From Bacteroidota bacterium (GTDB lineage: Bacteria > Bacteroidota > Bacteroidia > Bacteroidales > FEN-979): 39,589 nucleotides of DNA. The stretch is from the NCBI GenBank assembly GCA_007280875.1, contig QYQJ01000147.1, forward strand, positions 1-39,589, read 5' to 3'. The notes beneath the pieces were generated by a model. It was not told the origin of the DNA and made no database searches. It was given only the letters and a program-made list of their open reading frames with translations. The translations under genes were made by a program, and so were the position numbers. Below, piece by piece: positions 5,667 through 28,301 of the stretch. The stretch's first letter is position 1. Each line of letters starts with the position of its first letter.

Positions 5667-7928
5667 CTAATCCTTCGACTTCATGTAGTTCAGTGCGCTG
5701 CCCGCCTTGAACCACTCGATCTGCAGGGCGCTGTAACTGTGATTCACCGTGATCTTCTCAGAGGTTCCGCCGGCATGGTGGATCACCAGGGTGAGCGGTA
5801 CGCCGGGCTTGAAGGTATCCAGACCCAGGATATCGAAGGTGTCATTTTCGTGGATGCGGTTGTAATCCTCTAGATTGTTGAAGGTGAGGGCCAGGATCCC
5901 CTGCTTTTTCAGGTTGGTCTCGTGGATCCGGGCAAAGGATTTCACCAGTACCGCCAGTACATTGAGATGACGTGGTTCCATGGCAGCGTGTTCGCGCGAG
6001 GAGCCTTCGCCGTAATTTTCATCACCCACGATCAGGGAGCAGAGGCCCCGCTTTTTATAATCCCGGGCCACCTTCGATACCTCCTGGTAGTCATCAGACT
6101 CCTGGTTCTTTACCGAGTTGGTCTGGTCACTGAAAGCATTCACCGCACCCATAAGCAGGTTATTGGAGATGTTATCCAGGTGGCCGCGGTACTTCAGCCA
6201 GGGTCCGGCCATCGAGATGTGGTCGGTGGTGCATTTCCCTTTGGCTTTGATCAGTAACCGGAGCCCGGTAAGGTCTTTACCGCTCCATGCCGGGAAGGGT
6301 TCGAGCAGTTGTAACCGCTCCGAACCGGGATCTACCACTACGGAGATCTGATCCGGGTTATCCGGGGGAGCCAGGTATCCGATCTCCTTGACCTCGAAGC
6401 CATCCGGGGGAAGTTCAAACCCGGCAGGCTCGTCCAGCATTACCTCCTGGCCCTCTTCATTGACCAGTTTATCCTTCATCGGATTGAACGCCAGGCTTCC
6501 TGCCAGTGACATCGCCGTGACGATCTCCGGAGAGGCGACAAAAGCGTGTGTGCTGGCGTTGCCGTCGTTACGCTTGGCGAAGTTCCGGTTGAAGGAGGTG
6601 ATGATGGAGTTTTTCCGGCTCGGATCGTCCATGTGCCGTTCCCACTGGCCGATGCAGGGGCCGCAGGCATTGGCCATCACCACCCCGCCGATCTCGTCGA
6701 ATGCCTGAAGGATTCCGTCCCGCTCGGCAGTGTACCGGATCTGTTCCGATCCGGGTGTGATGAGGTATTCCGACTGCACTTTCACCTTCTTTTCGCCGGC
6801 CTGTCTGGCTATGGAAGCGGCCCGGGTGAGGTCCTCGTAGGAGGAGTTGGTGCAGGATCCGATCAAGCCGACCTCCAGTTTATGCGGGTAATCATTTTTC
6901 CGGAGGAAGGCAGCCAGTTCCGATACCGGGTGTGCGGCATCCGGTGTAAACGGACCGTTGACATAGGGTTCCAGTTTCGACAGGTCGATGCGGATGTATT
7001 GATCATAGTATGATTCCGGTTTTTTAACTACCTCATCATCCGGATTCAACGTGTGGGTATATTCATCGGCCAGGGCGGCCACGGCGGAACGGCCGGTAGC
7101 CTCAAGGTAGCTCTTCATTTTTCCGTCGAAAGCAAACAGGGAACAGGTGGCACCGATCTCCGCACCCATGTTGCAGATGGTTCCTTTTCCGGTGCATGAC
7201 AGATTCCGGGCGCCTTCACCGAAATATTCCACGATGTAACCGGTCCCCCCTTTCACGGTAAGAATCCCTGCCAGTTTCAGGATCACATCTTTCGGACTGG
7301 CCCAGCCGTTCAGTTTGCCGATAAGCTCCACGCCCAATACCTTTGGCATCTTAAGTTCCAGCGGCATTCCCGACATCACATCCACGGCATCGGCTCCGCC
7401 CACACCAATGGCTACCATCCCCAGGCCGCCTGCATTGGGCGTATGTGAATCGGTCCCGATCATCATCCCGCCCGGGAATGCGTAATTTTCAAAGATCACC
7501 TGGTGGATGATCCCGGCTCCGGGTTTCCAGAACCCGATCCCGTATTTTGCCGCCACCGACTGGAGGAAATCGTATACCTCCCTGTTGACATCAAGGGCCT
7601 GGATCAGGTCGTCGCGGACCCCCTCTTTGGCCTGGATCAGATGATCGCAGTGAACGGTTGCCGGAACGGCAGAAGATGACCGGCCGGCTGTAATGAATTG
7701 CAGCAGCGCCATCTGGGCCGTGGCATCCTGCATGGCCACCCGGTCGGGCTGAAAGTTGACATAATCTCCTCCCCTTACAAATGGTTTGACCGGGAAGGGA
7801 TCAAAAAGGTGTCCGTACAATATCTTTTCGGTAAGGGTGAGGGGCTTATGCCATTTAGTCCGTGCATGTTCCACCCCTTTCGCAAGCTTCTGGTAGCTCT
7901 CGCGAATCATTTTGACATCTATCATCAT
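5667..7928 (-). CDS. acn: Aconitate hydratase, mitochondrial type
   Basis: This enzyme interconverts citrate and isocitrate in the TCA cycle using a [4Fe-4S] cluster. The 753-residue length and motif content match the mitochondrial-type (ACO2-like) clade. The cluster cysteines are visible in [11 protein letters not shown] (near residue 360) and [10 protein letters not shown] (near 425). Substrate-binding motifs include [13 protein letters not shown] and the swivelling C-terminal domain with [19 protein letters not shown] and [15 protein letters not shown]. There are two adjacent possible starts ([15 protein letters not shown]). It is divergent from isocitrate dehydrogenase, the next enzyme in the cycle, with 98 bases between the starts that hold a -7 box for each direction, so the two are probably co-regulated. 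Nothing appears damaged. Confidence 0.97.
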
Positions 7929-7956
7929 GGTTTTCTAAAAAAAAATGATTTCAGAG

Positions 7957-7964
7957 CAAAATTA
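7957..7964 (-). promoter_or_regulatory. -7 box (TAATTTTG) for aconitase
   Basis: The minus strand reads TAATTTTG, matching TAnnTTTG, about 29 bases upstream of the aconitase start. No clear -33 TTTG is seen at the expected spacing. Confidence 0.45.
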
Positions 7965-7978
7965 CCAATTCAAAAGAA

Positions 7979-7986
7979 TAAATTTG
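7979..7986 (+). promoter_or_regulatory. -7 box (TAAATTTG) for isocitrate dehydrogenase
   Basis: TAAATTTG matches TAnnTTTG and lies 40 bases upstream of the ATG at 8027. With the minus-strand box at 7957 it makes a compact divergent promoter region. The -33 element is not obvious. Confidence 0.45.
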
Positions 7987-8026
7987 CTTTCAGAAAGAAG
8001 AAATCCAATCTATAACATGAAAAACT

Positions 8027-9292
8027 ATGACAGGAGAGAAAATTACAATTAAAAATGGTACATTAAATGTACCTGATTATCCGGTAATTCCTTTTATCGA
8101 AGGTGACGGGACCGGTCCTGATATCTGGAATTCCAGCGTACGCGTGTTTGATGCGGCTGTGGAAAAGGCTTATGGAGGAAAACGAAAGATCATCTGGAAA
8201 GAGGTGCTTGCCGGGCAGAAGGCGTTTGACCGGACCGGAGAGTGGCTGCCACAGGAGACGCTGGATACCATCCGGGAGTACCTGGTGGCCATCAAAGGAC
8301 CTTTAACCACACCGGTGGGTGGGGGGATCCGCTCGCTGAATGTGGCGCTTCGCCAGATCCTCGACCTCTATACCTGCCTCCGCCCGGTACGCTATTTCAA
8401 GGGGGTTCCGTCCCCGGTGAAGCGACCGGAGCTGACCGACATGGTAATCTTCCGGGAGAATTCAGAAGATATCTACGCCGGCATCGAATGGATGGCCGGC
8501 ACTCCGGAGGTTAAAAAGGTCATTGATTTCCTGATAAAGGAGATGGAAGTGAAGAAGATCCGCTTTCCGGAAAGCTCCTCCATCGGCATCAAGCCTGTAT
8601 CGAAACAGGGTACCGAGCGGTTGATGCGGGCGGCGATCGAATATGCACTGAAGCACGGGAGAGCCTCTGTGACACTTGTTCACAAAGGGAATATCATGAA
8701 GTTTACTGAGGGGCAGTTCAAGCAGTGGGGTTATGATCTCGCCGAACGGGAGTTTGGGGACAAGGTCTTCACCTGGCAGCAGTACGACAAAATCAAAGCT
8801 GAAAAAGGGGAAGAGGCTGCCAATGCAACTCAGGATGAAGCCCTCGCCGCCGGCAAACTTCTTATCAAAGATGTGATCGCCGACGCCTTCCTGCAGCAGA
8901 TCCTGACCCGTCCGGCCGAGTACTCGGTGATCTCCACCCTCAACCTCAACGGCGATTACATCTCCGATGCGTTGGCAGCTATCGTTGGCGGGATAGGGAT
9001 CGCTCCCGGAGCCAATATCAACTACGTAACCGGTCATGCCGTCTTTGAAGCGACACACGGCACCGCTCCGAAATATGCCGGAAAGGACCAGGTCAATCCC
9101 GGCTCGGTCATCTTATCCGGTGTGCTGATGCTCGAATACATGGGCTGGCAGGAGGCTGCCGATCTGATCGTCAAAGGGCTCGAAGGCGCCATCAACAAAA
9201 AACGCGTCACCTACGATTTCCACCGCCTGATGGAGGGTGCCACCAAACTGAAGTGCTCGGAGTTTGGGGAGGAGATTGTTGCGAATATGTAA
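8027..9292 (+). CDS. icd: NADP-dependent isocitrate dehydrogenase
   Basis: This enzyme oxidatively decarboxylates isocitrate to 2-oxoglutarate. The 421-residue sequence is strongly like the E. coli Icd type throughout, for example [57 protein letters not shown] and the end [13 protein letters not shown]. The NADP determinants are kept: Lys and Tyr in APKYAG, and Tyr and Arg in VTYDFHRLM. Ser103 in [10 protein letters not shown] corresponds to the serine phosphorylated by AceK in enterobacteria, but no kinase gene is in this window, so that control cannot be assumed here. It is transcribed divergently from aconitase, and a GC-rich hairpin follows eight bases after the stop. Confidence 0.97.
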
Positions 9293-9299
9293 CACCGTC

Positions 9300-9332
9300 C
9301 AGTAGGGGCGGGTTCTGAACCCGCCCCTACTG
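9300..9332. repeat. 33-base GC-rich palindrome after icd
   Basis: Sixteen-base perfect arms (CAGTAGGGGCGGGTTC and its reverse complement) flank a single T. It begins eight bases after the icd stop and could act as a terminator, though no U tract follows. Similar AGGGGCGGGTTC...GAACCCGCCCCT palindromes are, to my recollection, scattered in many environmental genomes, so it may be a dispersed element. The remaining bases to 9423 show no gene. Confidence 0.7.
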
Positions 9333-9423
9333 CGACACTACGGTACCCCTACTACGTGATGATTAAACAACAGGACATTCGGATAACTATCCTATCGTTA
9401 CTACCTTATTGGTCTGGGTCAAC

Positions 9424-9657
9424 ATGATCCGTACGGTCATCATCGACGACGAAGATCACATCCGTGATTCACTTGAAAAGTTGCTGGCAAGGCATTGTCC
9501 GCAGGTTATGATTTGCGGAACCGCCTGCAGTGTAGCCAGTGGCATCAGGATCATTCAGGAGATGCACCCTGATCTGGTTTTACTGGATATCGAGATGAAA
9601 GAAAGTTGGAAATTGGCAGTTGGAAACCATCTAAAGCAATTGGCTTTCCCTATATAA
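9424..9657 (+). pseudogene. Truncated response regulator receiver fragment
   Basis: The first 58 residues from ATG 9424 (MIRTVIIDDEDHIRDSLEKLL) are a good receiver domain of the LytTR-type regulators of this phylum, with the acidic pair at residues 8-9 and the phosphoacceptor Asp55 in LVLLDIEM. After residue 59 the homology stops abruptly and the frame enters an AGTTGGAAATTGGCAGTTGG stutter, ending in unrelated residues (KLAVGNHLKQLAFPI). The second half of the receiver, including the conserved Lys, and any DNA-binding domain are missing. No histidine kinase is nearby. It is a gene remnant, not a functional regulator. The track's start at 9409 adds five unlikely residues. Confidence 0.82.
9601..9628. 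repeat. GTTGGAAATTGGCA stutter at the truncation point of the response regulator
   Basis: The words AGTTGGAA, ATTGGCAG and TTGGAAAC are drifted copies of one unit. The array begins one codon after the last conserved receiver residues. A related word (CAGTTGGCAG) recurs at 37025-37050. Confidence 0.6.
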
Positions 9658-10820: not shown

Positions 10821-11966
10821 TCAATCCCACACCCCGATGTACCGCGCAATCACCAGCCGCTGGATCTCGCTGGTCCCTTCGCCGATCTGAAGGAGGCGCT
10901 GGTCGCGGTAAAACCGTTCGATGGGGTAGTCTTTCATCAGGCCATAACCGCCGTGGATCTGAACCCCTTCGTCGGCCACCTCCTTGGCGATCTCGGAACA
11001 GTACAGTTTGGCCATGGCTGCCTCTTTGGCGTATGGTTTATGAGTGTCTTTCAGCCATGCCCCCTTATAGAGCAGGTTTCGGGCCAGTTCGATCTTGGTG
11101 GCCATGTCGGCCAGTTTGAAGGCGTTGACCTGGAAATGTCCGATCGGCTGACCGAATTGCTTCCGCTCTTTCGCATATTGCATGGACACCTCGTAAGACC
11201 CCTGGGCACATCCGAGCCCCATCGCCCCGATGGCCAGCCTGCCGCTGTCGAGAGTATTCAGCATGATGTGTGATCCTTCGCCCCGTTTTCCCAGGATGTT
11301 GGAGTAGGGGACCCGGCAATCGTCAAAGTAGAGCTCAGCTGTATCGGAAGCCCGCCACATCATCTTGCCGTGCATCGGAACCCGTTTGAATCCGGGGGTA
11401 TCCGCATCCACCAGGATGGTAGTGAACTCTTTCTTCCCGTTCTGTTCCCCGGATACAACCTGGACCGTAGCTCCCTTGTTGATCGAGGAGGCCCCGTTGG
11501 TGATGAAGATCTTGGATCCGTTGATCACCCATTGATCATCTTCCACGCGGGCGGTGGTCTTGGTCCCCCGGGAGTCGCTGCCGGCATCGGGTTCGGTCAG
11601 ACCAAACGCCCAGAGGGCATCACCAATGGTGAGCATAGGGAGATACTTTTGCTTTTGCTCCTCTGTGCCGTAATTCATAATAGGCCCCATTCCCAGGGAG
11701 ATATGTGCCGCCAGGGTAGCTGCGTGGGACCCATCAATGCGGGCCAGCTCCTCCACGGCGATCACATAAGCCAGCATGTCCATGCCCGAACCTCCGTATT
11801 TGGTCTCTGTGATAAGGCCGAACAGCCCCAGTTCTCCCATTCGTTTGGTCAGCGGAAGGGAGAACTCTCCTTTTTCATCCAGTTCCTGTGCGACCGGACG
11901 GATCTCCCGCTCGGCAAAGTCCCGGACCGTTTTCCGGATCATTTCGTGTTCTTCGGTGATATACAT
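10821..11966 (-). CDS. Acyl-CoA dehydrogenase of the leucine/isovalerate gene set
   Basis: This FAD enzyme introduces the alpha-beta double bond in an acyl-CoA and passes electrons to ETF. I start at ATG 11966 (MYITEEHEMIRKTVRDF); the track's longer start at 11975 uses a TTG and adds three residues beside a repeat. Flavin-binding motifs are ITNGASSI and GLTEPDAGSDS; the C-terminal motif is LLQIGEGTSEIQRLVIARY. Position in a leucine operon suggests isovaleryl-CoA oxidation. However, isovaleryl-CoA dehydrogenases place the catalytic Glu in a mid-protein LERL segment and lack it in the C-terminal loop, whereas this protein has LDSGRL in the middle and Glu in GEGT, as in short/branched-chain and medium-chain enzymes. 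It may therefore handle 2-methyl branched or short straight substrates as well. It is the last gene of the operon. Confidence 0.9.
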   Translation of the reverse strand: MYITEEHEMIRKTVRDFAEREIRPVAQELDEKGEFSLPLTKRMGELGLFGLITETKYGGSGMDMLAYVIAVEELARIDGSHAATLAAHISLGMGPIMNYGTEEQKQKYLPMLTIGDALWAFGLTEPDAGSDSRGTKTTARVEDDQWVINGSKIFITNGASSINKGATVQVVSGEQNGKKEFTTILVDADTPGFKRVPMHGKMMWRASDTAELYFDDCRVPYSNILGKRGEGSHIMLNTLDSGRLAIGAMGLGCAQGSYEVSMQYAKERKQFGQPIGHFQVNAFKLADMATKIELARNLLYKGAWLKDTHKPYAKEAAMAKLYCSEIAKEVADEGVQIHGGYGLMKDYPIERFYRDQRLLQIGEGTSEIQRLVIARYIGVWD

Positions 11967-11969
11967 AAA

Positions 11970-12066
11970 GTTCAAGGTTCAAGGGTCAAGGTTCAAGGGT
12001 CAAGGAATCAGGATCCAGTTATCCAGTTATCCAGTCATCTGGTATCTGGTATCCGGTATCCGGAAT
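11970..12066. repeat. Stutter array between acyl-CoA dehydrogenase and HMG-CoA-lyase-like gene
   Basis: A block of four to five drifted TTCAAGG(G) words is followed by about seven drifted ATCCAGTT / ATCTGGT / ATCCGGT words of nine bases. The array fills most of the 122-base gap and ends just before the stop of the neighbouring lyase gene. No promoter or ORF is apparent in it. Confidence 0.8.
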
Positions 12067-12088: not shown

Positions 12089-12937
12089 CTACTGATATAT
12101 TTCATTTGCTATCATGATTGAATCTTTCAGCAGTTCCGGTTCCAGGGGGTTCGGAATCTGTTTTTCATGAAGAAACCTCACCAGGTCCTGCGTCGCCAGG
12201 TTGCCCATCAGCTCGTGGCCCGACTTCGGGCAACCGCCAAACCCATTGATCACTGTGTCAAAGCGACGGCAGCCGGTACGGTACGCTGCATCCACTTTGG
12301 AAGACCAGTCACCCTCCCCGTGATGGAGGTGGAGCCCGAATTCGAGATCCGGGTATTCGCTGATGATAGACGTGAAGACCGTTTCAATCATCGCGGCATC
12401 AATTTCTACTGATACGTTGGAAAGTGGAATGACCTGAGCACCAATATCCCGGAGTTTCCCGATCCAGTCCAGCAACAGGTCCAGGCTCCAGGGATCGCCA
12501 TAAGGGTTTCCGTAAGCGTAGGAGATGTAAATCACGGCTTTTTTTTCATATTTCCCACATAGGTCAACCACTTCAGCGGTTGTTCCAAAGACTTCGTAAA
12601 CCGTCGACCTGACGTTTTTCTCCAGAAACGATGGGGTAAACGAAAAGGGGCAGGAAAGGGCTGTCACCTCCTCCATGGGAGCCACCTGTTCGGCGCCCCG
12701 GCGGCTCATGACAAGCACCATCCGTTCCGAATCGGAGTTGAAAAAATTAAGTTCCCGGATGAGATCCAGCGTGTCGGCCATCTGGGGGACAACCTTGGGA
12801 TTGACGATGCTTCCGATCTCAACTGTGTCAAAACCAACTTTCAGCAGGTTATTAATAAACCGGACTTTGGAAGAGGTGGGGATGAGACTCTCCACCCCCT
12901 GCATCCCCTCCCTTGGTGATTCGATGATCTTGATCAT
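12089..12937 (-). CDS. HMG-CoA lyase-like protein, copy 1 (retains the Cys loop)
   Basis: This 282-residue TIM-barrel protein belongs to the HMGL-like (DRE-TIM) family; HMG-CoA lyase cleaves HMG-CoA to acetyl-CoA and acetoacetate in the last step of leucine breakdown. It keeps the SIVNPKVVPQM segment with the conserved Glu before it, the HLHHGEGD metal-binding His pair, and the catalytic loop GFGGCPKS with the active-site Cys followed by GNLATQDLV. By eye, the usual RDG metal-binding Asp is Glu (SPREGMQG) and the usual GDT Asp is Asn (PLSNVSVE). It overlaps copy 2 by four bases (ATGA). It may be a true but diverged lyase, or one subunit of a pair; see findings. Confidence 0.85.
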   Translation of the reverse strand: MIKIIESPREGMQGVESLIPTSSKVRFINNLLKVGFDTVEIGSIVNPKVVPQMADTLDLIRELNFFNSDSERMVLVMSRRGAEQVAPMEEVTALSCPFSFTPSFLEKNVRSTVYEVFGTTAEVVDLCGKYEKKAVIYISYAYGNPYGDPWSLDLLLDWIGKLRDIGAQVIPLSNVSVEIDAAMIETVFTSIISEYPDLEFGLHLHHGEGDWSSKVDAAYRTGCRRFDTVINGFGGCPKSGHELMGNLATQDLVRFLHEKQIPNPLEPELLKDSIMIANEIYQ

Positions 12938-13944
12938 TTCCGGCCCGAGAGGGATTTCGGGATCCGGCCGTTACGGATCGCTTCGGAGCGAAGGCGGCGG
13001 CCGACGATGCGTTCCACCATGGCGCCGATCTCCAGCACTTTATCCACATCCAGCTGGGTATCGATCCCCATTTCGTCCATCATTACGACCATGTCCTCGG
13101 TGGAGACCAGTCCCACGATGTTGGGATCCTTGTAATAATATTTTCCGGTACCGGCAACGGGTACGCCATCCACAAAGTTTGCCGGTTGCCCCCCGATGCC
13201 ACCCATGGTGGATTCGAAATTGACCATCCCGGTCTGCAGGGCGGCCAGCACATTGGCCAGCCCCCATCCGCGGGTGGTATGGAAATGGACGATCTGCTTC
13301 TCCACCCTGACGCCCGAATCGAGCAGCATCGAGTAATAGTTGTACACCCGGTCGGGAGAGGCAGAACCGTCGTGATCGGCATGCTCCACATCGTTGGCTC
13401 CGATGTCCAGCCAGCGTTTTGTGAACTCGATGGCCTTGTTCATGTCGGTCGGACCTTCAATCGGGCAGCCCCAGATGGTGCTGACCGTCCCGTTCACCTT
13501 CAGTCCGGCATCGTGTGCCAGCGGAATGTACTGTTCCACCATCTTCCAGTAGTCGGCCAGGCTGAGTCCCGAATTGGTCCTGTGGTGGGATTCGCTGGTG
13601 GATACCATGAAGAGGATGCGGTCGGGGCCCCAGCCCTCTTTACGGGCTTCAATGGCGCGCTCCACCGCCTTCTCCCGGATGGTGATGGTGGTGAGGGATA
13701 CCTTGTCAAGCAAATGAGCAATTTTTTTACTCGATCTGATCCCTTTCAGCACCTCATCGGCATCCCTGAACTGGGGCATTCCCTTGGGATTACCCAGGTT
13801 GGTCACTTCAATATGCCTGAAGCCGGCCAGGATCAGTTCCTCCGCCAGCCAGATCTTCGCGTCGGTGGGAATGAACTTCTCTTCGTGCTGGAATCCATCC
13901 CGGACCGTGATGTCGCCTATGGTTACTCTCTTTGGATAATTCAT
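12934..13944 (-). CDS. HMG-CoA lyase-like protein, copy 2 (lacks the Cys loop)
   Basis: This 336-residue HMGL-like TIM barrel keeps the TVRDGFQ motif with Arg and metal-binding Asp, the Glu in HIEVTNLGNPKGMPQF, the second acidic site in HADHDG and the His pair VHFHTTRGWG. In place of the Cys-containing GGCP loop it has GIGGQPANF, and the following GNLATED is GLVSTED, so the catalytic Cys and nearby Asn of HMG-CoA lyase are absent by eye. A C-terminal extension of about 40 residues ends in GRIPKSLSGRK. It directly precedes copy 1 with an ATGA overlap, so equal expression is likely. It could act on another substrate by retro-aldol or Claisen chemistry, or work with copy 1. Confidence 0.83.
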   Translation of the reverse strand: MNYPKRVTIGDITVRDGFQHEEKFIPTDAKIWLAEELILAGFRHIEVTNLGNPKGMPQFRDADEVLKGIRSSKKIAHLLDKVSLTTITIREKAVERAIEARKEGWGPDRILFMVSTSESHHRTNSGLSLADYWKMVEQYIPLAHDAGLKVNGTVSTIWGCPIEGPTDMNKAIEFTKRWLDIGANDVEHADHDGSASPDRVYNYYSMLLDSGVRVEKQIVHFHTTRGWGLANVLAALQTGMVNFESTMGGIGGQPANFVDGVPVAGTGKYYYKDPNIVGLVSTEDMVVMMDEMGIDTQLDVDKVLEIGAMVERIVGRRLRSEAIRNGRIPKSLSGRK

Positions 13945-13956
13945 GATGCGTTGTAA

Positions 13957-14060
13957 TTTGTTGTTCGCTGTTCGCTGTTCGCGGATACCGGATACCGGAT
14001 ACTGGATGCTGGATGCCGGATTCTTGATACCTCGATCCTCGACCCTCGACCCTCGACCCT
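13957..14060. repeat. Triple stutter array between HMGL copy 2 and CoA-transferase B
   Basis: Three different words follow one another: TGTTCGC repeated three times, then GGATACC/GGATGCT repeated about five times, then CTCGACC repeated four times. The array ends exactly at the stop codon of the CoA-transferase B gene and fills the 115-base gap. Confidence 0.85.
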
Positions 14061-14716
14061 CATACCTGCATCTCCGGCACTTCTCCTTCCACGATCAGCT
14101 TCCCTGCCGTCGCCTTTTTAATCTCTTCCACTGTTACTCCCGGAGCCCGTTCGATCAGCTTGAAGCCTCCTTCCACCACATCAATCACAGCCAGGTCGGT
14201 CACGATCCGTTTCACGCAGTTCACTCCTGTCAGAGGCAGGGTGCACTCTTTCAGCAGCTTGGAATTCCCCTCCTTGTCGGTGTGCTGCATCGCCACGATG
14301 ATGTTCTTGGCAGCTGCCACCAGATCCATGGCGCCACCCATCCCCTTGATCAGCTTGCCGGGCACCTTCCAGCTGGCAATGTCGCCTTTTTCAGATACTT
14401 CGAAAGCTCCGAGCACGGTCAGGTCGATATGACCTCCCCGGATCATCCCGAAGCTGCTGGCCGAATCAAAGAAGGCCGCCCCGGGGATGGCGGTGACTGT
14501 TTGTTTCCCGGCATTGATGAGATCCGGATCCATCTCATCCGGGCTGGGAAAAGGACCTATGCCAAGCAGGCCGTTCTCCGATTGTAAAATGACCTCCATC
14601 CCCTCCGGAATGAAATTGGCTACCAGGGTTGGGATTCCGATGCCCAGGTTAACATAGTAGCCATCCCGCAACTCCTGGGCGATCCGTTTTGCTATGCCGT
14701 TTTTATCTAATGACAT
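14060..14716 (-). CDS. scoB: 3-oxoacid CoA-transferase subunit B
   Basis: With subunit A this 218-residue protein forms a class I CoA-transferase that moves CoA from succinyl-CoA (or another donor) to acetoacetate. The catalytic Glu is in the conserved QSENGLLGIGP motif near residue 47, and the opening GIAKRIAQELRDGYYVNLGIGIPTL is typical of the B subunit. In this operon it would activate the acetoacetate released by HMG-CoA lyase to acetoacetyl-CoA for thiolysis. The start is 19 bases after the stop of subunit A. An acetyl- or butyryl-type donor (AtoA-like) cannot be excluded from sequence. Confidence 0.93.
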   Translation of the reverse strand: MSLDKNGIAKRIAQELRDGYYVNLGIGIPTLVANFIPEGMEVILQSENGLLGIGPFPSPDEMDPDLINAGKQTVTAIPGAAFFDSASSFGMIRGGHIDLTVLGAFEVSEKGDIASWKVPGKLIKGMGGAMDLVAAAKNIIVAMQHTDKEGNSKLLKECTLPLTGVNCVKRIVTDLAVIDVVEGGFKLIERAPGVTVEEIKKATAGKLIVEGEVPEMQV

Positions 14717-14735
14717 GGTTGTTCGTGTTTACAGG

Positions 14736-15428
14736 TTAACTTCGTGTGGTTGCAAATTCGATCCGTTTTTCATACTCCTTCCCCTGAAAGATCCGCTGCA
14801 CATATACACCGGGCGTATGGATGTGGTTTGGTTCCAGTTCACCATAGGGAACCAGCTCCTCCACCTCGGCAATGGTGATCCTGCCGGCGGTGGCTATCGG
14901 TTGATTGAAGTTATTTGCCGTTTTGTTATAGATCAGATTGCCCATCGTATCGCCGTATTTGGCCTTGACGATGGCAAAATCAGCGGTCAGCCCCAGCTCC
15001 ATAATATGCGGTTTGCCATTAAAGATACGGACCTCTTTCTCCCCCTGGACTTCGGTCCCATAACCAGCCGGGACGAAAAAGGCCGGGATGCCGGCGCCTC
15101 CGGCCCGGATCCGCTCAGCCAGGGTCCCCTGGGGGATCAGCTCTACCTCCAGTTCGCCGGTGAGGAACTGGCGTTCAAACTCCTTGTTCTCCCCCACGTA
15201 GGAGGCGATCATCTTGTTCATCTGGTGCTTGCGCAGCAATACTCCCAATCCGAAATTGTCAATCCCGGCGTTATTGGAGATGCAGATCAGGTTGGTGATG
15301 CTCGACTCAGCCAGCGCTTTCAGGCAATTCTCCGGGATCCCGCACAACCCGAATCCCCCGAACATCACGGTCATCCCGCTCTCAATTCCCCGGATCGCTT
15401 CATAGGCGTCTTTTACTACTTTGTTCAT
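14736..15428 (-). CDS. scoA: 3-oxoacid CoA-transferase subunit A
   Basis: This 230-residue subunit has the class I CoA-transferase A signature GMTVMFGGFGLCGIPENC near the N-terminus, the ISNNAGIDNFGLG segment, and the CoA-binding region FVPAGYGTEVQGEKEVR. It pairs with the downstream B subunit in the usual A-B order. The product should feed acetoacetate from leucine breakdown back to acetyl-CoA. The preceding gap on the minus strand carries a GTGGTGCT-type stutter array. Confidence 0.93.
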   Translation of the reverse strand: MNKVVKDAYEAIRGIESGMTVMFGGFGLCGIPENCLKALAESSITNLICISNNAGIDNFGLGVLLRKHQMNKMIASYVGENKEFERQFLTGELEVELIPQGTLAERIRAGGAGIPAFFVPAGYGTEVQGEKEVRIFNGKPHIMELGLTADFAIVKAKYGDTMGNLIYNKTANNFNQPIATAGRITIAEVEELVPYGELEPNHIHTPGVYVQRIFQGKEYEKRIEFATTRS

Positions 15429-15466: not shown

Positions 15467-15545
15467 TGTGGTGCTGTGGTGCTGTGGTGACGTGGTGCCG
15501 TGGTGAAAATTTCGCTACCTCGCTACCTCACTTCTCGCTACCTTC
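15467..15545. repeat. Stutter array between biotin carboxylase and CoA-transferase A
   Basis: TGTGGTGC is repeated with drift four to five times, followed by TTCGCTACC / TCGCTACC repeats. The second part runs into the biotin carboxylase gene and encodes its last residues (GSEK) and stop codon. The word CGCTACCTCGCTA recurs at 18354-18370 and a relative at 26719-26746. Confidence 0.8.
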
Positions 15546-17549
15546 TTCCTCAAACACCACCAGTGGCGAATGAACCTCCACCAGCTGGTTCAGTTCCACA
15601 TTCACTTCACTGATCTTCGCATCCTTTGATGCAATAATGTTGTTTTCCATCTTCATCGCTTCGATGATAAGCAGGATAGCTCCCTTCTTCACCTCCTCTC
15701 CTGGCTTCACATTGATCTTGATCACCTTCCCGGGCATCGGGGCGGTGACATGCGACTGGTCGCTCCCCAGCGACTCGGCCGAGGCAGCGATCAGCTCGTT
15801 GGGTAAAAAGTCAAACCGCTTCATCAGAAAGATATGCCCTCCCACACTGATATACTCCCGGTGATTACGGTCTTCTGAATAGAGGATATGGTAAGGCTCT
15901 CCATCTACAGAGAAGTGCAGGGATGAGGGTTGTCTGCCACAAATTTTCGTCCGGTAGCTGGTTCCTCCGATCTCCACTTCCACAGCATCTTCCGATGATC
16001 CGGGAAGGGTGACCGGAAACTCCTCTTCTTCGCAGGATACCGTAAGGCGAGCGAGATGCCTCCAGAACCCGACAGCGCTCCACAGATCCCCGGCTTTCCG
16101 GCAGAGAAACCCTTTGGCTGACGGATGCTGCAGACTCAGCAGCAGATATCCGATCAGCAGGATGTGCCGGGGGACATCGGCCTTCTCCTGCCGGATCTCG
16201 GATACGATCTCTTCGGTATGTTCGTCGCAGAACTTGGTCGAGATGCTGTTGGTGAGAAAAGGCTTTCCAATGATCAGTTTCTTCAGGTAGCTGATGTTGG
16301 TACGGATGCCGTGAATGCCGTAAAAGGCCAGTGCTTCGTTCATCCTGTGGGCGGCCTTTTTGCGGGTTTCAGCCCACACCACCAGCTTGCTGATCATGGG
16401 GTCGAAGGCGCTTTTAATCTCGGTCCCCGGGGTTACCCCGGTATCGATACGGATATGATCACCCTGGGGTTCGCAGTAGAGTGTCATGAAGCCAGGAGAG
16501 GGGAGGAAGTTGTTCTCCGGGTCTTCGGCGTAAATCCGGCACTCGATGGCATGGCCTTGCTGGCGAATATCCTCCTGCTTCAGCCGCAACGGCTCCCCTT
16601 CGGCGATTTTGATCTGCTCCTCCACGATGTCGATACCGGTAACCAGCTCGGTGACCGGATGTTCCACCTGGATGCGGGTGTTCATTTCCAGGAAATAGAA
16701 GTTGAGCTTTTTGTCCACCAGGAACTCTACTGTCCCGGCACTGGTATAGCCGATCTCCTTTCCGATCCGTACGGCGGCTTCCCCCATCTGTGCCCGGATC
16801 TCCGGCGTGAGAGTGGCTGAGGGCGACTCTTCGATGATCTTCTGGTACCGGCGCTGGATCGAACATTCGCGTTCGAACAGGTGGATCACGTTGCCATGCA
16901 GGTCGGCCAGGATCTGGATCTCGATGTGGCGTGGTTCGTCGAGGTACTTTTCGATGTACACCGTAGCGTCGCCGAAATAGGCCCTGGCCTGCCGGGCAGT
17001 CGCCTCCAGAGCTTCTTCCAGCTCTTTTTCGTCGCGGACGATCTGCATCCCTTTGCCCCCTCCTCCGGCTGCAGCCTTCAGCAGTACAGGGAAGCCCACA
17101 CGGTCCTTCGCTTTCAGCAGCACCTCTTTGGTGCCGGTGAGTCCTTCGGTGATGGGAACCCCGCTTTTCTTTGCCCAGGCCCGGGCTTCGATCTTGTTGC
17201 CCATCACCTGCATGGCATGGGTATTGGGACCGATAAAGATCAGGCCGGCTTCGTCGCAGGCTTGGACAAAGGCAGCATTTTCGGCCAGGAAGCCATATCC
17301 TGGATGAACGGCATCACAGGAAGTGTTCAGGGCTACCTCGATGATCTTGGGGATGTTGAGGTAGGTTTCACTCAGTTCACTCTCCCCGATGCAGATCGCT
17401 TTATCGGCCATGGATATGTGCAGCGAGTCGGAATCGATGCGGGAGTAGATCCCTACTGTACGGATTCCCATCCTGCCGGCGGTCCGCATGATCCGTACCG
17501 CAATCTCTCCCCGGTTGGCAATCAGGATTCTGGTTATTCTTTTACCCAT
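15528..17549 (-). CDS. liuD: Methylcrotonyl-CoA carboxylase alpha subunit (biotin carboxylase plus biotin carrier)
   Basis: This 673-residue subunit carboxylates its own biotin with ATP and bicarbonate for the partner carboxyltransferase. Order of domains: biotin carboxylase (1-445) with LIANRGEIAVRI, the ATP grasp loop AAAGGGGKGM, EKYLDEPRHIEIQI and MNTRIQVEHPVTE; a BT-type linker domain (about 450-590); and a biotinyl domain (about 600-668) with the biotinylation motif EAMKMEN. Propionyl- and acetyl-CoA carboxylase alphas look similar, but the linked MCC-type beta subunit and hydratase identify the substrate as 3-methylcrotonyl-CoA. The start overlaps the hydratase gene by 16 bases. Its last four residues are encoded in repeat DNA. 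Confidence 0.93.
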   Translation of the reverse strand: MGKRITRILIANRGEIAVRIMRTAGRMGIRTVGIYSRIDSDSLHISMADKAICIGESELSETYLNIPKIIEVALNTSCDAVHPGYGFLAENAAFVQACDEAGLIFIGPNTHAMQVMGNKIEARAWAKKSGVPITEGLTGTKEVLLKAKDRVGFPVLLKAAAGGGGKGMQIVRDEKELEEALEATARQARAYFGDATVYIEKYLDEPRHIEIQILADLHGNVIHLFERECSIQRRYQKIIEESPSATLTPEIRAQMGEAAVRIGKEIGYTSAGTVEFLVDKKLNFYFLEMNTRIQVEHPVTELVTGIDIVEEQIKIAEGEPLRLKQEDIRQQGHAIECRIYAEDPENNFLPSPGFMTLYCEPQGDHIRIDTGVTPGTEIKSAFDPMISKLVVWAETRKKAAHRMNEALAFYGIHGIRTNISYLKKLIIGKPFLTNSISTKFCDEHTEEIVSEIRQEKADVPRHILLIGYLLLSLQHPSAKGFLCRKAGDLWSAVGFWRHLARLTVSCEEEEFPVTLPGSSEDAVEVEIGGTSYRTKICGRQPSSLHFSVDGEPYHILYSEDRNHREYISVGGHIFLMKRFDFLPNELIAASAESLGSDQSHVTAPMPGKVIKINVKPGEEVKKGAILLIIEAMKMENNIIASKDAKISEVNVELNQLVEVHSPLVVFEEEGSEK

Positions 17550-18316
17550 TTTGGTTTTCGTTTTTCAAGGAATGCGTTGATCCCCTCCTGTCCCTCTTCG
17601 GATGCCCGGATGTCGGCGATCATCCGTGCGGTGAAATCGTACGCTTCCTTCAGAGAGAGGTTGTTAGTGACTTCGTAGATCAGTTTTTTACCATGGTTCA
17701 TAGCGGCGGGTCCGCTGGTACGCAGGTGTTTGATGGTTTCCTGGGCGGTGGCCTCCAGTTGTTCGGCCGGAACCGATTTATTGACCAGGTGAAAGGCTTC
17801 AGCCTCCTTGCCGTTGATCCGGCGTCCGGTGAGCATCAGTTCCCGGGTTCCGTATTCGCCTACGCGTTTGACCACATAGGGGGAGATGCAGGCTGGAACA
17901 ATCCCGATCTTCACTTCACTCAGGGAGAAGGTAGCATCATCGGTGCAATAGGCGAGATCGCAGGAGGCCAGTAATCCATTCGCCCCTCCCAGGGAAGCAC
18001 CATGTACCAGGGCAATGGTTGGTTTGGTACAGGTGTAGATGGAATAGAAACACTTGGACAGCAGCAGGCTCTCCTGGTAATTGATTTCATAGCTGTTAGT
18101 CGCCACATCTTTCATCCAGGTAAGATCTGCCCCGGCGCAGAAAGATTTGCCTCTGCCGCGTAGGATCACACAGATGGCATCTGTCGACTGCAGGTCAAGG
18201 AAACATTCGGCCAGCTCTTCCAGCATAGTGGTGTTGAAAGCGTTGTGCACCTCCGGGCGGTTCAGCCAGACCGTGAAAATGCCTTTCTCCAGGGTTGTCT
18301 CTATTGTAGTAAACAT
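17534..18316 (-). CDS. liuC: Methylglutaconyl-CoA hydratase (enoyl-CoA hydratase family)
   Basis: This 260-residue crotonase-fold enzyme should hydrate 3-methylglutaconyl-CoA to HMG-CoA. The oxyanion-hole segments are CAGADLTWMKD and HGASLGGANGL, and SEVKIGIVPACISPYV matches the LiuC branch better than generic enoyl-CoA hydratases. A generic hydratase role is possible, but its position between the alpha and beta subunits of methylcrotonyl-CoA carboxylase argues for the leucine pathway. The 3' end overlaps the carboxylase alpha gene by 16 bases, indicating translational coupling. Confidence 0.9.
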   Translation of the reverse strand: MFTTIETTLEKGIFTVWLNRPEVHNAFNTTMLEELAECFLDLQSTDAICVILRGRGKSFCAGADLTWMKDVATNSYEINYQESLLLSKCFYSIYTCTKPTIALVHGASLGGANGLLASCDLAYCTDDATFSLSEVKIGIVPACISPYVVKRVGEYGTRELMLTGRRINGKEAEAFHLVNKSVPAEQLEATAQETIKHLRTSGPAAMNHGKKLIYEVTNNLSLKEAYDFTARMIADIRASEEGQEGINAFLEKRKPKWVKE

Positions 18317-18404: not shown

Positions 18405-20012
18405 CTACATTCTGAACACCCCATACTTCGTCTCTTTGTATGCCTTATTCTGCGAGATGGCGATCGACAGGCCGATGATCTTCCGTGTGTCGACCGGATC
18501 GATGATGCCATCGTCCCAGAGGCGGGCCGTGCTGAAGTAAGCCGAGCCCTCCTCTTCGTACTTCTGTAGAATGGTCTGTTGCAGCTTGTCCCGGTCTTCC
18601 GGAGAGAGCTCCTGGCCCCTTGCTTTCAGCTGTTCCTCCTTTACCTGGATCAGCACCTGAGATGCCTGTTCTCCCCCCATTACGGAGATCTTGGAGCTGG
18701 GGTACATAAAAAGGAAACGGGGTTCATATGCCCGTCCGGCCATGGCGTAATTGCCGGCACCAAATGATCCGCCAAAGATCACTGTAAATTTGGGGACATT
18801 GGCATTGGCGGTTGCATGCACGAACTTGGCACCGTCGCGGGCGATCCCTCCGTGCTCGTATTGTTTCCCTACAATGAATCCTGTGATGTTTTGCAGGAAG
18901 AGGATCGGGATATTGCGGGCAGTGCAGAGCTCGATAAAATGGGCGCCTTTAAGCGCACTTTCCGAGAAAAGCACTCCATTGTTGGCCAGGATACCCACCT
19001 CATACCCCATGATCCGGGCAAAACCTGTCACCAGAGTGAGACCATATCTCTCCTTGAACTCATGGAAGAGACTTCCGTCAACCATCCGGGCGATGAGTTC
19101 CCGTGAATCGACCGGTTTCCGAACGTCGATAGGCAGAATCCCATAGAGTTCTTCAGTATCATAAAAGGGTTCTTCAATCGGTGCGGTTGGCAATGGCTGG
19201 TATTCACGACGTTCAATCGACTCGAAGATATTGCGGCAGATCTGGATGGCATGCACGTCGTTTTCGGCCAGGTGGTCGGCGACGCCGGAGATCATGGTGT
19301 GCATCTCTCCGCCGCCCAGCTCTTCAGCGGTTACCGTTTCGCCGGTAGCGGCTTTCACCAGCGGGGGTCCGCCGATAAAGATAGTCCCCTGGTTGCGGAC
19401 GATGATGGTTTCGTCGCTCATTGCCGGCACATAGGCTCCCCCTGCGGTGCAGGAGCCCATCACGACAGCTATCTGCGGGATTTTTTCGGCCGAAAGACGG
19501 GCCTGGTTGAAGAAGAAGCGGCCAAAATGGTACTTATCAGGGAAGACGTTGGACTGCTCAGGTAAAAAAACCCCTCCCGAGTCGACCAGGTAGACACAGG
19601 GGAGCCTGTTTTCCATGGCGATCTCCTGGGCACGGACATGCTTCTTGATCGTCTCTTTGGTGTAGGATCCGCCTTTTACCGTGGCATCGTTCGCGATAAT
19701 CATCACCTCTTTTGCATGGATCACGCCGATACCGGTCACCACCCCGGCTGAGGGGAACTCATTGTTGTACAAGTTATAAGCGGCCATTGGGGAGAGCTCC
19801 AGAAAAGGAGTGTTCTTGTCGACCAGCAGGTCGATCCGCTCCCTGGCAAGCAGCTTTCCACGATCCTTGTGCCGTTTGACGGCAATTTCCGGACCTCCAC
19901 GCGTTGTTGAGGCTAGCCGTTCTTTGTAAATGGCAAGGATCTTGAGGTACTCCTCTTTCTGCTTCCGGAATTCAGGGCTGGAGGTGTCGAGTTTACTTTG
20001 GATACGAAACAT
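18405..20012 (-). CDS. liuB: Methylcrotonyl-CoA carboxylase beta subunit (carboxyltransferase)
   Basis: The 535-residue carboxyltransferase accepts carboxybiotin from the alpha subunit and forms 3-methylglutaconyl-CoA. Both crotonase-like halves are present: the N-terminal CoA site (VYLVDSGGVFLPEQ, GSCTAGGAYVPAMSDE, GTIFIGGPPLVKAATGE) and the C-terminal biotin site (FLQNITGFIVGKQYEHGGIARDGAK, FGGSFGAGNYAMAGRAYEPRF). Length and motifs are those of MCC beta (MCCC2-like) rather than propionyl-CoA carboxylase. It is the first gene of the leucine operon. The 52-base gap upstream from the efflux operon on the same strand has no clear promoter match, so read-through from that operon is possible. Confidence 0.95.
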   Translation of the reverse strand: MFRIQSKLDTSSPEFRKQKEEYLKILAIYKERLASTTRGGPEIAVKRHKDRGKLLARERIDLLVDKNTPFLELSPMAAYNLYNNEFPSAGVVTGIGVIHAKEVMIIANDATVKGGSYTKETIKKHVRAQEIAMENRLPCVYLVDSGGVFLPEQSNVFPDKYHFGRFFFNQARLSAEKIPQIAVVMGSCTAGGAYVPAMSDETIIVRNQGTIFIGGPPLVKAATGETVTAEELGGGEMHTMISGVADHLAENDVHAIQICRNIFESIERREYQPLPTAPIEEPFYDTEELYGILPIDVRKPVDSRELIARMVDGSLFHEFKERYGLTLVTGFARIMGYEVGILANNGVLFSESALKGAHFIELCTARNIPILFLQNITGFIVGKQYEHGGIARDGAKFVHATANANVPKFTVIFGGSFGAGNYAMAGRAYEPRFLFMYPSSKISVMGGEQASQVLIQVKEEQLKARGQELSPEDRDKLQQTILQKYEEEGSAYFSTARLWDDGIIDPVDTRKIIGLSIAISQNKAYKETKYGVFRM

Positions 20013-26718: not shown

Positions 26719-26746
26719 CGCTTCGCTATTTCGCTTCGCTATCTCC
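26719..26746. repeat. CGCTTCGCTAT stutter at the end of the GH2 pseudogene
   Basis: CGCTTCGCTATTT and CGCTTCGCTATCT are tandem copies that overlap the stop codon of the GH2 remnant and encode its last residues. The word is related to TTCGCTACC at 15510-15542. Confidence 0.65.
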
Positions 26747-28301
26747 AAGTATTTCACAGATCTCCCGGTTCACCTTACGGATCCTTTCCGCATCCGGCTT
26801 CACCACCTTCCGGTCGTAGGTCATGATGCCGTTCACCTCGATCTCTACATCTGTGGTTTGGGTATATATGGCGGCTGAAAATCCGGGCTTGATCAGTTTT
26901 TTGAGTTTTTCCGCCAGCTCATTGTAGGCGTCAGTGACCTCATCAGAGGTTTTATATTGTACATAGCCCCAGTTGCGGCCTGTCTCCCAAAGGTGACCCT
27001 CTACCGCCAAGCCCAGGCCGCCGTACTCTCCCAATACGCATACCCGGCTACCTTCATAGAGCGTGAGTTGCGGATCGGGGTAGTTGTGGACGTCGAGGAT
27101 ATCGCCCACAGCATAAAAATTTCCCCCGCTAGCCGGGTTGACCAGCCGGGAGGGGTCATAGGCTTTTGTCCATTGGGCGATCCCGACGGTATTGAACTGT
27201 CCCCACGATTCGTTGAAGGGAATCCAGACCACCACACAGGGGTTGGAGATCAGTTTGTCAATAATGGCCCGCCATTCGTTCATGTAGTTTTCGGCCGACT
27301 CGGGGGAGCGTACTTTCTCCTGGCCGGTAAAATATTGCCCGGGTTGCCACTGAGGCCCCCGGTCGCCGCTGGGCATATCCTGCCATACCAGCATAACTCT
27401 TAACCCGGTCGAGCGCTTTTCCGTTTCGCGTCAGGGTGATCCCGAGGTCGTAAAGGAATGGATTTTCGGGACTCCAGAGTTTCGGTTCGGGAACCGCCAG
27501 GAGAACTTCCGTCCCTGCCGCCGCTCTGCCTGATTCTACCACTGTCCCCTGGTCAAACAGTGTCACCTCAATGAGATCGCCTGATGAGGAGCCGGAGGCA
27601 ACGGCAGTAACGGAGAGGGTTTGCCCGTCAATATCGGGGATGCTTTTTACCGATATGATGTGGTTCTCCCCAACCGGCTCAAGCCAAACGGTTTGCCAGA
27701 TGCCGGTGACCGCTGTGTACCAGATGCCTCTGGGGTCATTCACCTGTTTGCCCCTGGGCTGATAGCCAGCGTTGGTCGGATCCCATACACGGACCATCAG
27801 GGTCTGTTGCGTCTCTTTGGATAGGTATGCTGTGATGTCGAACGTAAAGGGAATGTATCCTCCCTGATGAGATCCGATACGGATACTGTTGATCCAGATG
27901 TCGCATTTCCAGTCAATGGCGCCGAAGTTCAGCAGGATGTGCTTCCCTTTCCAGGAAGCCGGGATAGAAAAGGACCGGGCATACCAGAGCTCGTTTTCAG
28001 CGCCTACCGGTTTCTGAACTCCCGAGAGGCTTGATTCGACTGCAAAAGGGACGAGAATCTTCCCGTTAAAGGCATCCGGGAGGCTATGACCTTTCGGAAG
28101 GATGGCATAGTCCCACAATCCGTTCAGGTTTTGCCATTCGTCACGTTCCAGGATTGGTCGCGGGTATTCAGGTAAAGGATTTGCCGGATCTACCTGTTCA
28201 GTCCATTGCGTTTTCAATCTATCCCCCGCCGGATGCCATTGCTGAGCGTTGCCGGATATGCAGGCAAGAACTGTTATAAAAGAGAGTACAAGATGCCTCA
28301 T
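26726..28301 (-). pseudogene. Glycoside hydrolase family 2 gene broken by an internal deletion
   Basis: Two ORFs in different frames form one secreted GH2 beta-galactosidase or beta-glucuronidase-like enzyme. The first (28301 to about 27394) has a signal peptide (MRHLVLSFITVLACISGNAQ), the sugar-binding jelly roll (EWQNLNGLWDYAI, LLNFGAIDWKCDIWIN) and the Ig-like domain ending NGKALDRVKSY. The second (27394 to 26726) starts within the TIM barrel at LVWQDMPSGD and includes the acid/base region PFNESWGQFN and the nucleophile region LGEYGGLG. At 27390-27402 the sequence jumps directly from one to the other with a frame change, removing roughly 60-80 residues that normally hold the first barrel strands. 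Catalytic residues remain, but the barrel cannot be complete. Decay by deletion is the simplest reading; assembly error is possible. Confidence 0.85.

Follow-up and report, generated by a model that had tools for sequence, protein, structure and literature searches.

HMG-CoA lyase is a textbook enzyme; its active-site cysteine and metal-binding asparagine are regarded as critical, and its loss causes human disease. In a leucine-type gene cluster of an uncultured Bacteroidales bacterium, two neighboring genes encode lyase-like proteins that depart from this scheme in complementary ways, one of them having exchanged two aspartates and the other lacking both the cysteine and the asparagine. Do the two proteins build a single active site between them, or does each work on its own? 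We pursued this question in the 39,589-nt stretch of DNA that carries the pair (here called the window; contig QYQJ01000147.1 of assembly GCA_007280875.1) and across related genomes. A first-pass annotation of the window had offered two readings, namely, an obligate heteromeric lyase or a lyase accompanied by a partner of new specificity.

Results

Both genes are encoded on the minus strand. Copy 1 (12089-12937) specifies a TIM barrel of the HMG-CoA lyase type with 282 amino acids, a Glu/Asn variant of the Bacteroidota subfamily, while copy 2 (12934-13944) specifies a Cys-less HMG-CoA-lyase-like TIM barrel of 336 amino acids from a distinct subfamily. The four-base overlap noted in the first-pass annotation is an ATGA (12934-12937) in which the stop codon of copy 2 meets the start codon of copy 1. 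The pair sits between the gene of an acyl-CoA dehydrogenase (isovaleryl-CoA dehydrogenase by context; 10821-11975), next to copy 1, and those of 3-oxoacid CoA-transferase subunits B and A (acetoacetate activation; 14060-15428), next to copy 2. There follow a biotin carboxylase with biotin carrier (methylcrotonyl-CoA carboxylase alpha by context; 15528-17549), a member of the enoyl-CoA hydratase family (methylglutaconyl-CoA hydratase by context; 17534-18316) and a carboxyltransferase (methylcrotonyl-CoA carboxylase beta by context; 18405-20012), all on the minus strand. We refer to such clusters as leucine operons, a label assigned by gene content. Copy 1 and copy 2 are probably cotranscribed without being obligately joined.

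In the host assembly (G000, 88% complete), the proteins matching PF00682 are this pair only, and a search for a canonical lyase elsewhere found none. Nor was a 2-isopropylmalate synthase found in this 88% complete assembly, so leucine synthesis may be lacking. Elsewhere in the window (26726-28301), the domains of a glycoside hydrolase of family 2 are divided over two overlapping minus-strand frames, with the N-terminal domains at 27258-28301 and the TIM barrel at 26726-27394, reflecting either a frameshifted gene or an assembly error.

The human enzyme uses Arg41, Glu72, Tyr167 and Cys266 for catalysis and Asp42, His233, His235 and Asn275 as metal ligands, Cys266 and Asn275 being among its critical residues (PMC6941031). 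Searches with either copy returned HMG-CoA lyase models besides the HMGL-like family, as well as solved lyase structures. We mapped the residues of both copies to human positions 42, 204, 233, 235, 266 and 275 by alignment with the human, B. subtilis and A. baumannii lyases. All motifs quoted in the first-pass annotation were found (SPREGMQ, PLSNVSV, GFGGCPKS and GNLATQD in copy 1; TVRDGFQ, HADHDG and GIGGQPANF in copy 2), and its residue assignments were confirmed: copy 1 keeps the Cys, the Asn and the His-x-His motif and has Glu and Asn for two Asp; copy 2 keeps both Asp and the His-x-His motif, has Gln for Cys and lacks the Asn.

Specifically, copy 1 has Glu10 (12908-12910) at the metal-ligand position of human Asp42 and Asn174 (12416-12418) at that of Asp204, whereas Cys236 (12230-12232) and Asn246 (12200-12202) correspond to catalytic Cys266 and metal ligand Asn275, respectively. 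Glu40 (12818-12820) marks a third conserved difference from Bacteroidota lyases, most of which carry Asp at position 72, and corresponds to the human state. At positions 41, 42, 72, 167, 204, 233, 235, 266 and 275, copy 1 thus reads R E E Y N H H C N, a pattern fixed in all 54 sequences of its clade (52 complete and 2 without the N-terminus). When the clade was compared with 103 ordinary Bacteroidota lyases (cut-offs of 93% and 85%), exactly three columns were fixed to different letters, and all three (42, 72 and 204) are active-site positions. What had been described as losses are a carboxylate-to-carboxylate exchange (D42E) and an acid-to-amide exchange (D204N). All four catalytic residues (Arg41, Glu72, Tyr167 and Cys266) and three of the four metal ligands are intact; R41, Y167, H233, H235, C266 and N275 are kept in the clade. 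Measured against the published residue list (PMC6941031), copy 1 differs only at Asp42, which is Glu clade-wide.

Copy 1 resembles the Bacteroidota-type lyase (~280 aa, motif ESPRDAMQ; e.g., L092-L120 and L312) in its length, in Cys, Tyr, His-x-His and Asn, and at 36 to 45% identity; it differs by the three exchanges, Asp42 and Asp72 to Glu and Asp204 to Asn, that are fixed in one clade. Its PF00682 (HMGL-like) score is 57.2 bits, with a cut-off of 29. Against NCBIfam NF004283, it scores 136 bits, below the curated cut-off of 246 bits, yet this model fails to discriminate because ordinary Bacteroidota lyases also stay below the cut-off (182 to 184 bits). Another likeness is to homocitrate synthases of the LysS/Lys20 type, which have Glu for Asp at the first metal-ligand position as well (LREGEQ versus PREGMQ). 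Glu is present at position 42 in the solved structures 3ivs, 3a9i, 2ztj and 6ktq, where we take it to bind the metal. In contrast to copy 1, which has the lyase Cys and Asn, homocitrate synthases catalyze a condensation and have no lyase Cys loop.

Copy 2 deviates in other places. It keeps human Asp42 as Asp16 (13897-13899), while Gln253 (13186-13188) replaces catalytic Cys266 and Leu279 (13108-13110) replaces the metal ligand Asn275. Human Asp204 is retained as Asp190 within the invariant stretch His188-Ala-Asp190-His191 (13372-13383), both His being new. In addition, the Cys loop carries an insertion, ANF..GVPV.GTG.YYYKDP (13117-13182), that is nearly invariant in 134 sequences and is modeled with low pLDDT at residues 255 to 264. 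Beyond what the first-pass annotation had listed, Tyr167 is also missing, being Thr in copy 2. At the nine positions given above for copy 1, the pattern is R D E T D H H Q L in 134/134 relatives, among which His188, His191, Asn49, Glu21/22 and most of the insert are invariant, too. Catalytic Arg and Glu and three metal ligands (Asp and the two His) are therefore kept, so that copy 2 departs from the published list (PMC6941031) at three residues, Tyr167, Cys266 and Asn275. We considered whether the metal Asn might come from Asn275 (copy 2 numbering) of the insert itself and rejected this idea, as Asn stands there in only 86 of the 134 sequences. In its fold, the Arg-Asp-Glu-Asp-HxH set, a TED motif after the Cys loop and its side of the tree, copy 2 resembles the human, B. 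subtilis and A. baumannii lyases (2cw6, 1ydo and 6nds; PF00682), from which it differs by the three replacements, the two His around Asp204 and the conserved insertion. Its PF00682 score of 113.3 bits lies above the gathering score. In a plasmid search with copy 2, only relatives at ~34 to 36% appeared among the matches listed; a separate scan of genomes for copy 2 covered the best 80 matches.

Both genes look functional, and their active-site changes are not noise or decay. Pairwise dN/dS (w; Nei-Gojobori, with dS partly saturated) is ~0.06 to 0.09 for copy 1 and ~0.02 to 0.03 for copy 2, indicating stronger constraint on the latter. Identity within the host family is 44 to 84% for copy 1 (roughly 45 to 55% overall across the 54-sequence clade) and 82 to 95% for copy 2 (70 to 95% across the order). 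Decay of either copy was rejected on the basis of w and the invariant sites.

In a tree with reference lyases (SH-aLRT, quick search), a fully supported branch separates the two copies. Copy 1 nests among Bacteroidota-type lyases, and copy 2 groups with the human/Bacillus-type lyases, its stem being long and its crown short; since they fall in different old subfamilies, we rejected a tandem duplication. The Glu/Asn clade has a single, late origin with full support and was found in the host family and two others (f124 and f149). Each protein was predicted to form a complete TIM barrel, with a mean pLDDT of 94 for copy 1 and 88.5 for copy 2, whose loop 255-264 is uncertain. The closest solved relatives of both predicted monomers are all HMG-CoA lyases (TM 0.83 to 0.92 to solved lyases for copy 1; Foldseek, 0.92 to 0.95 by target for copy 2). 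With each barrel predicted to be whole, it is not obvious that one could supply a residue that the other has lost. Fold and alignment of the monomer models suggest instead that each barrel holds its own active site.

Do the two genes always occur together, as the complementary pattern might lead one to expect? They do not, although their association is strong. Most of the genomes are fragmented MAGs, in which a missing gene tells us less than one that is found; the following counts are uncorrected for phylogeny. Of 37 genomes in the host family, the host among them, 31 carry both genes, side by side wherever the contigs permit it, and 4 carry none. Copy 2 occurs in G006 (98% complete) with copy 1 missing, and G001 (69% complete) has a copy-2 fragment. 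In a sample of 247 genomes of the order, copy 2 was detected in 63, a lyase in 63 and both in 56. The pair is thus together in 56 of the 70 genomes with either gene, far above expectation (Fisher p ~1e-39, uncorrected for descent). In 22 genomes of this sample, a lyase gene lies at most ~3 kb from copy 2 on the same strand, arrangements in the order including copy 2 and then the lyase, 36 to 422 nt apart, and the order lyase-CtA-CtB-copy 2. Outside the Glu/Asn clade, the lyase that co-occurs with copy 2 is ordinary and complete in nearly all genomes. Copy 2 therefore lives mainly with complete canonical lyases and has no need for a Cys-keeping, Asp-lacking partner. Ordinary lyases with Glu at position 72 mostly adjoin copy 2 (L285, L286, L142, L150, L152 and L221), hinting at coadaptation with the neighbor (uncorrected for descent).

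Leucine operons with the same neighbors exist in four states: with copy 2 only (G006/L305, G626/L308 and G545/L320), with a lyase only (G479/L310 and G586/L311), with both (L312 and the window) or with neither. One example is L305, with the order CT-ECH-BC-CtA-CtB-copy2-ACAD, in a genome that is 98% complete and has no other lyase. Two further congeneric genomes, G500 and G601, have copy 2 without a lyase and the carboxylase elsewhere; in G500, a CoA-transferase accompanies copy 2 (L306) and the carboxylase lies on another contig. Congeners of G626 (G529) and G545 (G642) do have the lyase. Counting all 74 genomes of the order with the beta subunit of methylcrotonyl-CoA carboxylase (carboxyltransferase match of ≥69% identity), 49 have both genes, 6 copy 2 only, 5 a lyase only and 14 neither.

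Copy-2-only loci keep genes for acetoacetate activation, namely, a CoA-transferase in L305, L306 and L308 and, in L320, an ORF that by eye resembles acetoacetate-CoA ligase; in G601, no such activator was seen within the stretch read. The activator genes in these four loci fit acetoacetate as the product of copy 2. While copy 2 is found in leucine operons beside acetoacetate activation, this location is not universal, many copies lying elsewhere. At L213 (3855-6978), a confirmed acetoacetate-CoA ligase gene is directly upstream of copy 2. As a separate observation, an OadA/PycB-like carboxyltransferase with a fused biotin carrier (7292-9469, Pfam-checked) takes the place of the biotin carboxylase in L320, and L172, L195 and L207 show the same replacement by 31 to 33% matches only, suggesting a transcarboxylase form of methylcrotonyl-CoA carboxylation.

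Six genomes (G484, G514, G533, G589, G630 and G651) have no carboxylase, yet carry both copy 2 and an ordinary lyase, the two lying in separate and unrelated places (L323-L335). A looser, nonobligate partnership is therefore conceivable. HMG-CoA synthase, considered as a source of substrate in such genomes, was rejected, as it was not found in the 17 genomes examined; none of these six has it.

How is the last step accomplished where both genes are missing? A protein of the AtuA family (PF07287) is present in 9 of the 14 carboxylase-positive genomes without lyase and copy 2 and, at this level, in no other of the 247 (hypergeometric p ~2e-13, uncorrected for descent). In five inspected cases, the gene is part of the operon, lying between BC and ACAD, and encodes PF07287 plus PF23544 (L313, 6870-8684; L316, 6311-8176; L317, 5336-7150; L318, 13377-15176; L319, 4954-6759). 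The AtuA operons are without HMG-CoA lyase, copy 2 and CoA-transferase. In these nine genomes, AtuA seems to replace the lyase, yielding acetoacetyl-CoA and acetate; an acetate lyase would give acetoacetyl-CoA directly, which fits the absent CoA-transferase.

Discussion

The activities, substrates and metal binding that we infer here build on sequences, conservation, phylogeny, operons and the substitution of these proteins across genomes, which were read directly. The account we favor, and to which we give slightly less than an even chance, is that both are HMG-CoA lyases and not obligately joined, copy 2 being Cys-less and sufficient by itself, and copy 1 having had its metal site retuned. 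Copy 2 would cleave HMG-CoA to acetyl-CoA and acetoacetate, the latter for the neighboring CoA-transferase. Asp16, His220 and His222 would bind its metal, with Arg15 and Glu46 acting as in other lyases, and the acid/base role of the missing Cys and Tyr may have been taken over by His188/His191, both new and invariant, or by the segment inserted in the Cys loop. Copy 1, a descendant of an ordinary Bacteroidota HMG-CoA lyase, has probably remained an acyl-CoA lyase that depends on metal and Cys and would use Glu10 where others use Asp42, like homocitrate synthases. The retuning of its other acids (Asp72 to Glu, Asp204 to Asn) might most simply alter rate, substrate or direction. Since Cys266 and Asn275 are listed as critical in the human enzyme, a Cys-less lyase is a strong claim, and its sufficiency is challenged by the 56 of 63 copy-2 genomes that also keep a lyase and by the six that keep both genes and have neither the carboxylase nor HMG-CoA synthase, a combination that all the readings weighed here leave unexplained. 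One may take the idea further, to a Cys-independent, His-based HMG-CoA lyase of Bacteroidales that works alone or beside the classical enzyme and in one clade allowed the partner's metal site to be rebuilt (Arg-Glu-Glu-Asn) for a new substrate, a new direction or a mixed complex; we consider this wider scenario possible, while leaning against it.

Copy 2 might instead act as a lyase or aldolase on a 3-hydroxyacyl-CoA other than HMG-CoA and accompany leucine catabolism, copy 1 being the HMG-CoA lyase. Such a role would suit the rebuilt active site (Tyr to Thr, Cys to Gln, Asn to Leu and two new His), the long stem branch, the pair's retention in genomes without carboxylase and the complete ordinary lyase in most copy-2 genomes. 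However, copy-2-only leucine operons would then miss their last step, copy 2 is closely linked to acetoacetate-activating genes, and in the Glu/Asn clade it is the putative HMG-CoA lyase that has the changed acids. On balance, we think this substrate switch unlikely, if well worth keeping in view. That copy 2 and the lyase form a nonobligate complex, in which copy 2 stabilizes, regulates or channels for a lyase and each works alone, appears to us rather improbable: the co-occurrence in 56 of 70 genomes, the same-strand lyases within ~3 kb in 22, the co-retention without carboxylase, the ATGA overlap and the adjacency of the Glu/Asn gene where contigs allow are all in line with it, but co-occurrence and adjacency are also expected from a shared pathway and descent, the invariant active site of copy 2 is unlike that of a mere scaffold, and each gene is found without the other.

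An obligate heteromer with one shared site, to which copy 1 would give Cys and Asn and copy 2 the Asp, would explain why the complementary pattern is exact and conserved in the clade. We nevertheless deem this first proposal of the first-pass annotation very improbable, as intact leucine operons occur with either partner alone, copy 2 shows the same "losses" beside complete lyases or with none, the complementary state arose once and late, and the predicted models give every chain a complete lyase-type barrel. Equally hard to credit is that, in the Glu/Asn clade, copy 1 has become a paralog that is inactive or regulatory, heading for loss and tolerated because copy 2 does the work. Copy 1 indeed evolves much faster than copy 2, is absent from the otherwise intact operon of G006 and has changed a residue that is a metal ligand in the human enzyme; against this stand its low w and the invariance of Cys, Tyr, His-x-His and Asn over 54 sequences at roughly 45 to 55% overall identity.

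The second proposal, a lyase with a partner of new specificity, fared better and may apply, given that copy 2 is a new conserved type, that copy 1 underwent a coordinated three-residue change and that the genes co-occur so strongly (56/70). The novelty is the Cys-less subfamily, not complementation. A second, nonclassical HMG-CoA lyase in leucine catabolism has a precedent in Rv2498c, the (R)-HMG-CoA lyase of M. tuberculosis (PMC6689899), which differs from copy 2 in being CitE-like and without sequence relation to it. AtuA (PMC4847356) likewise seems to take over this step in those leucine operons of Bacteroidales that have neither copy 1 nor copy 2, but belongs to an unrelated family (PF07287/PF23544) whose operons also do without a CoA-transferase. 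In the literature searched, we found no report on D42E or D204N human alleles or on heteromeric lyases.

A conserved family that apparently does its job without the Cys and Asn would, if true, separate what the chemistry needs from what history happened to supply, and the natural Glu/Asn variant offers a ready-made experiment on the metal site. For the Bacteroidales themselves, our data suggest at least three alternative proteins for the final step of leucine breakdown, proteins that present annotation would overlook or lump together under a single name.
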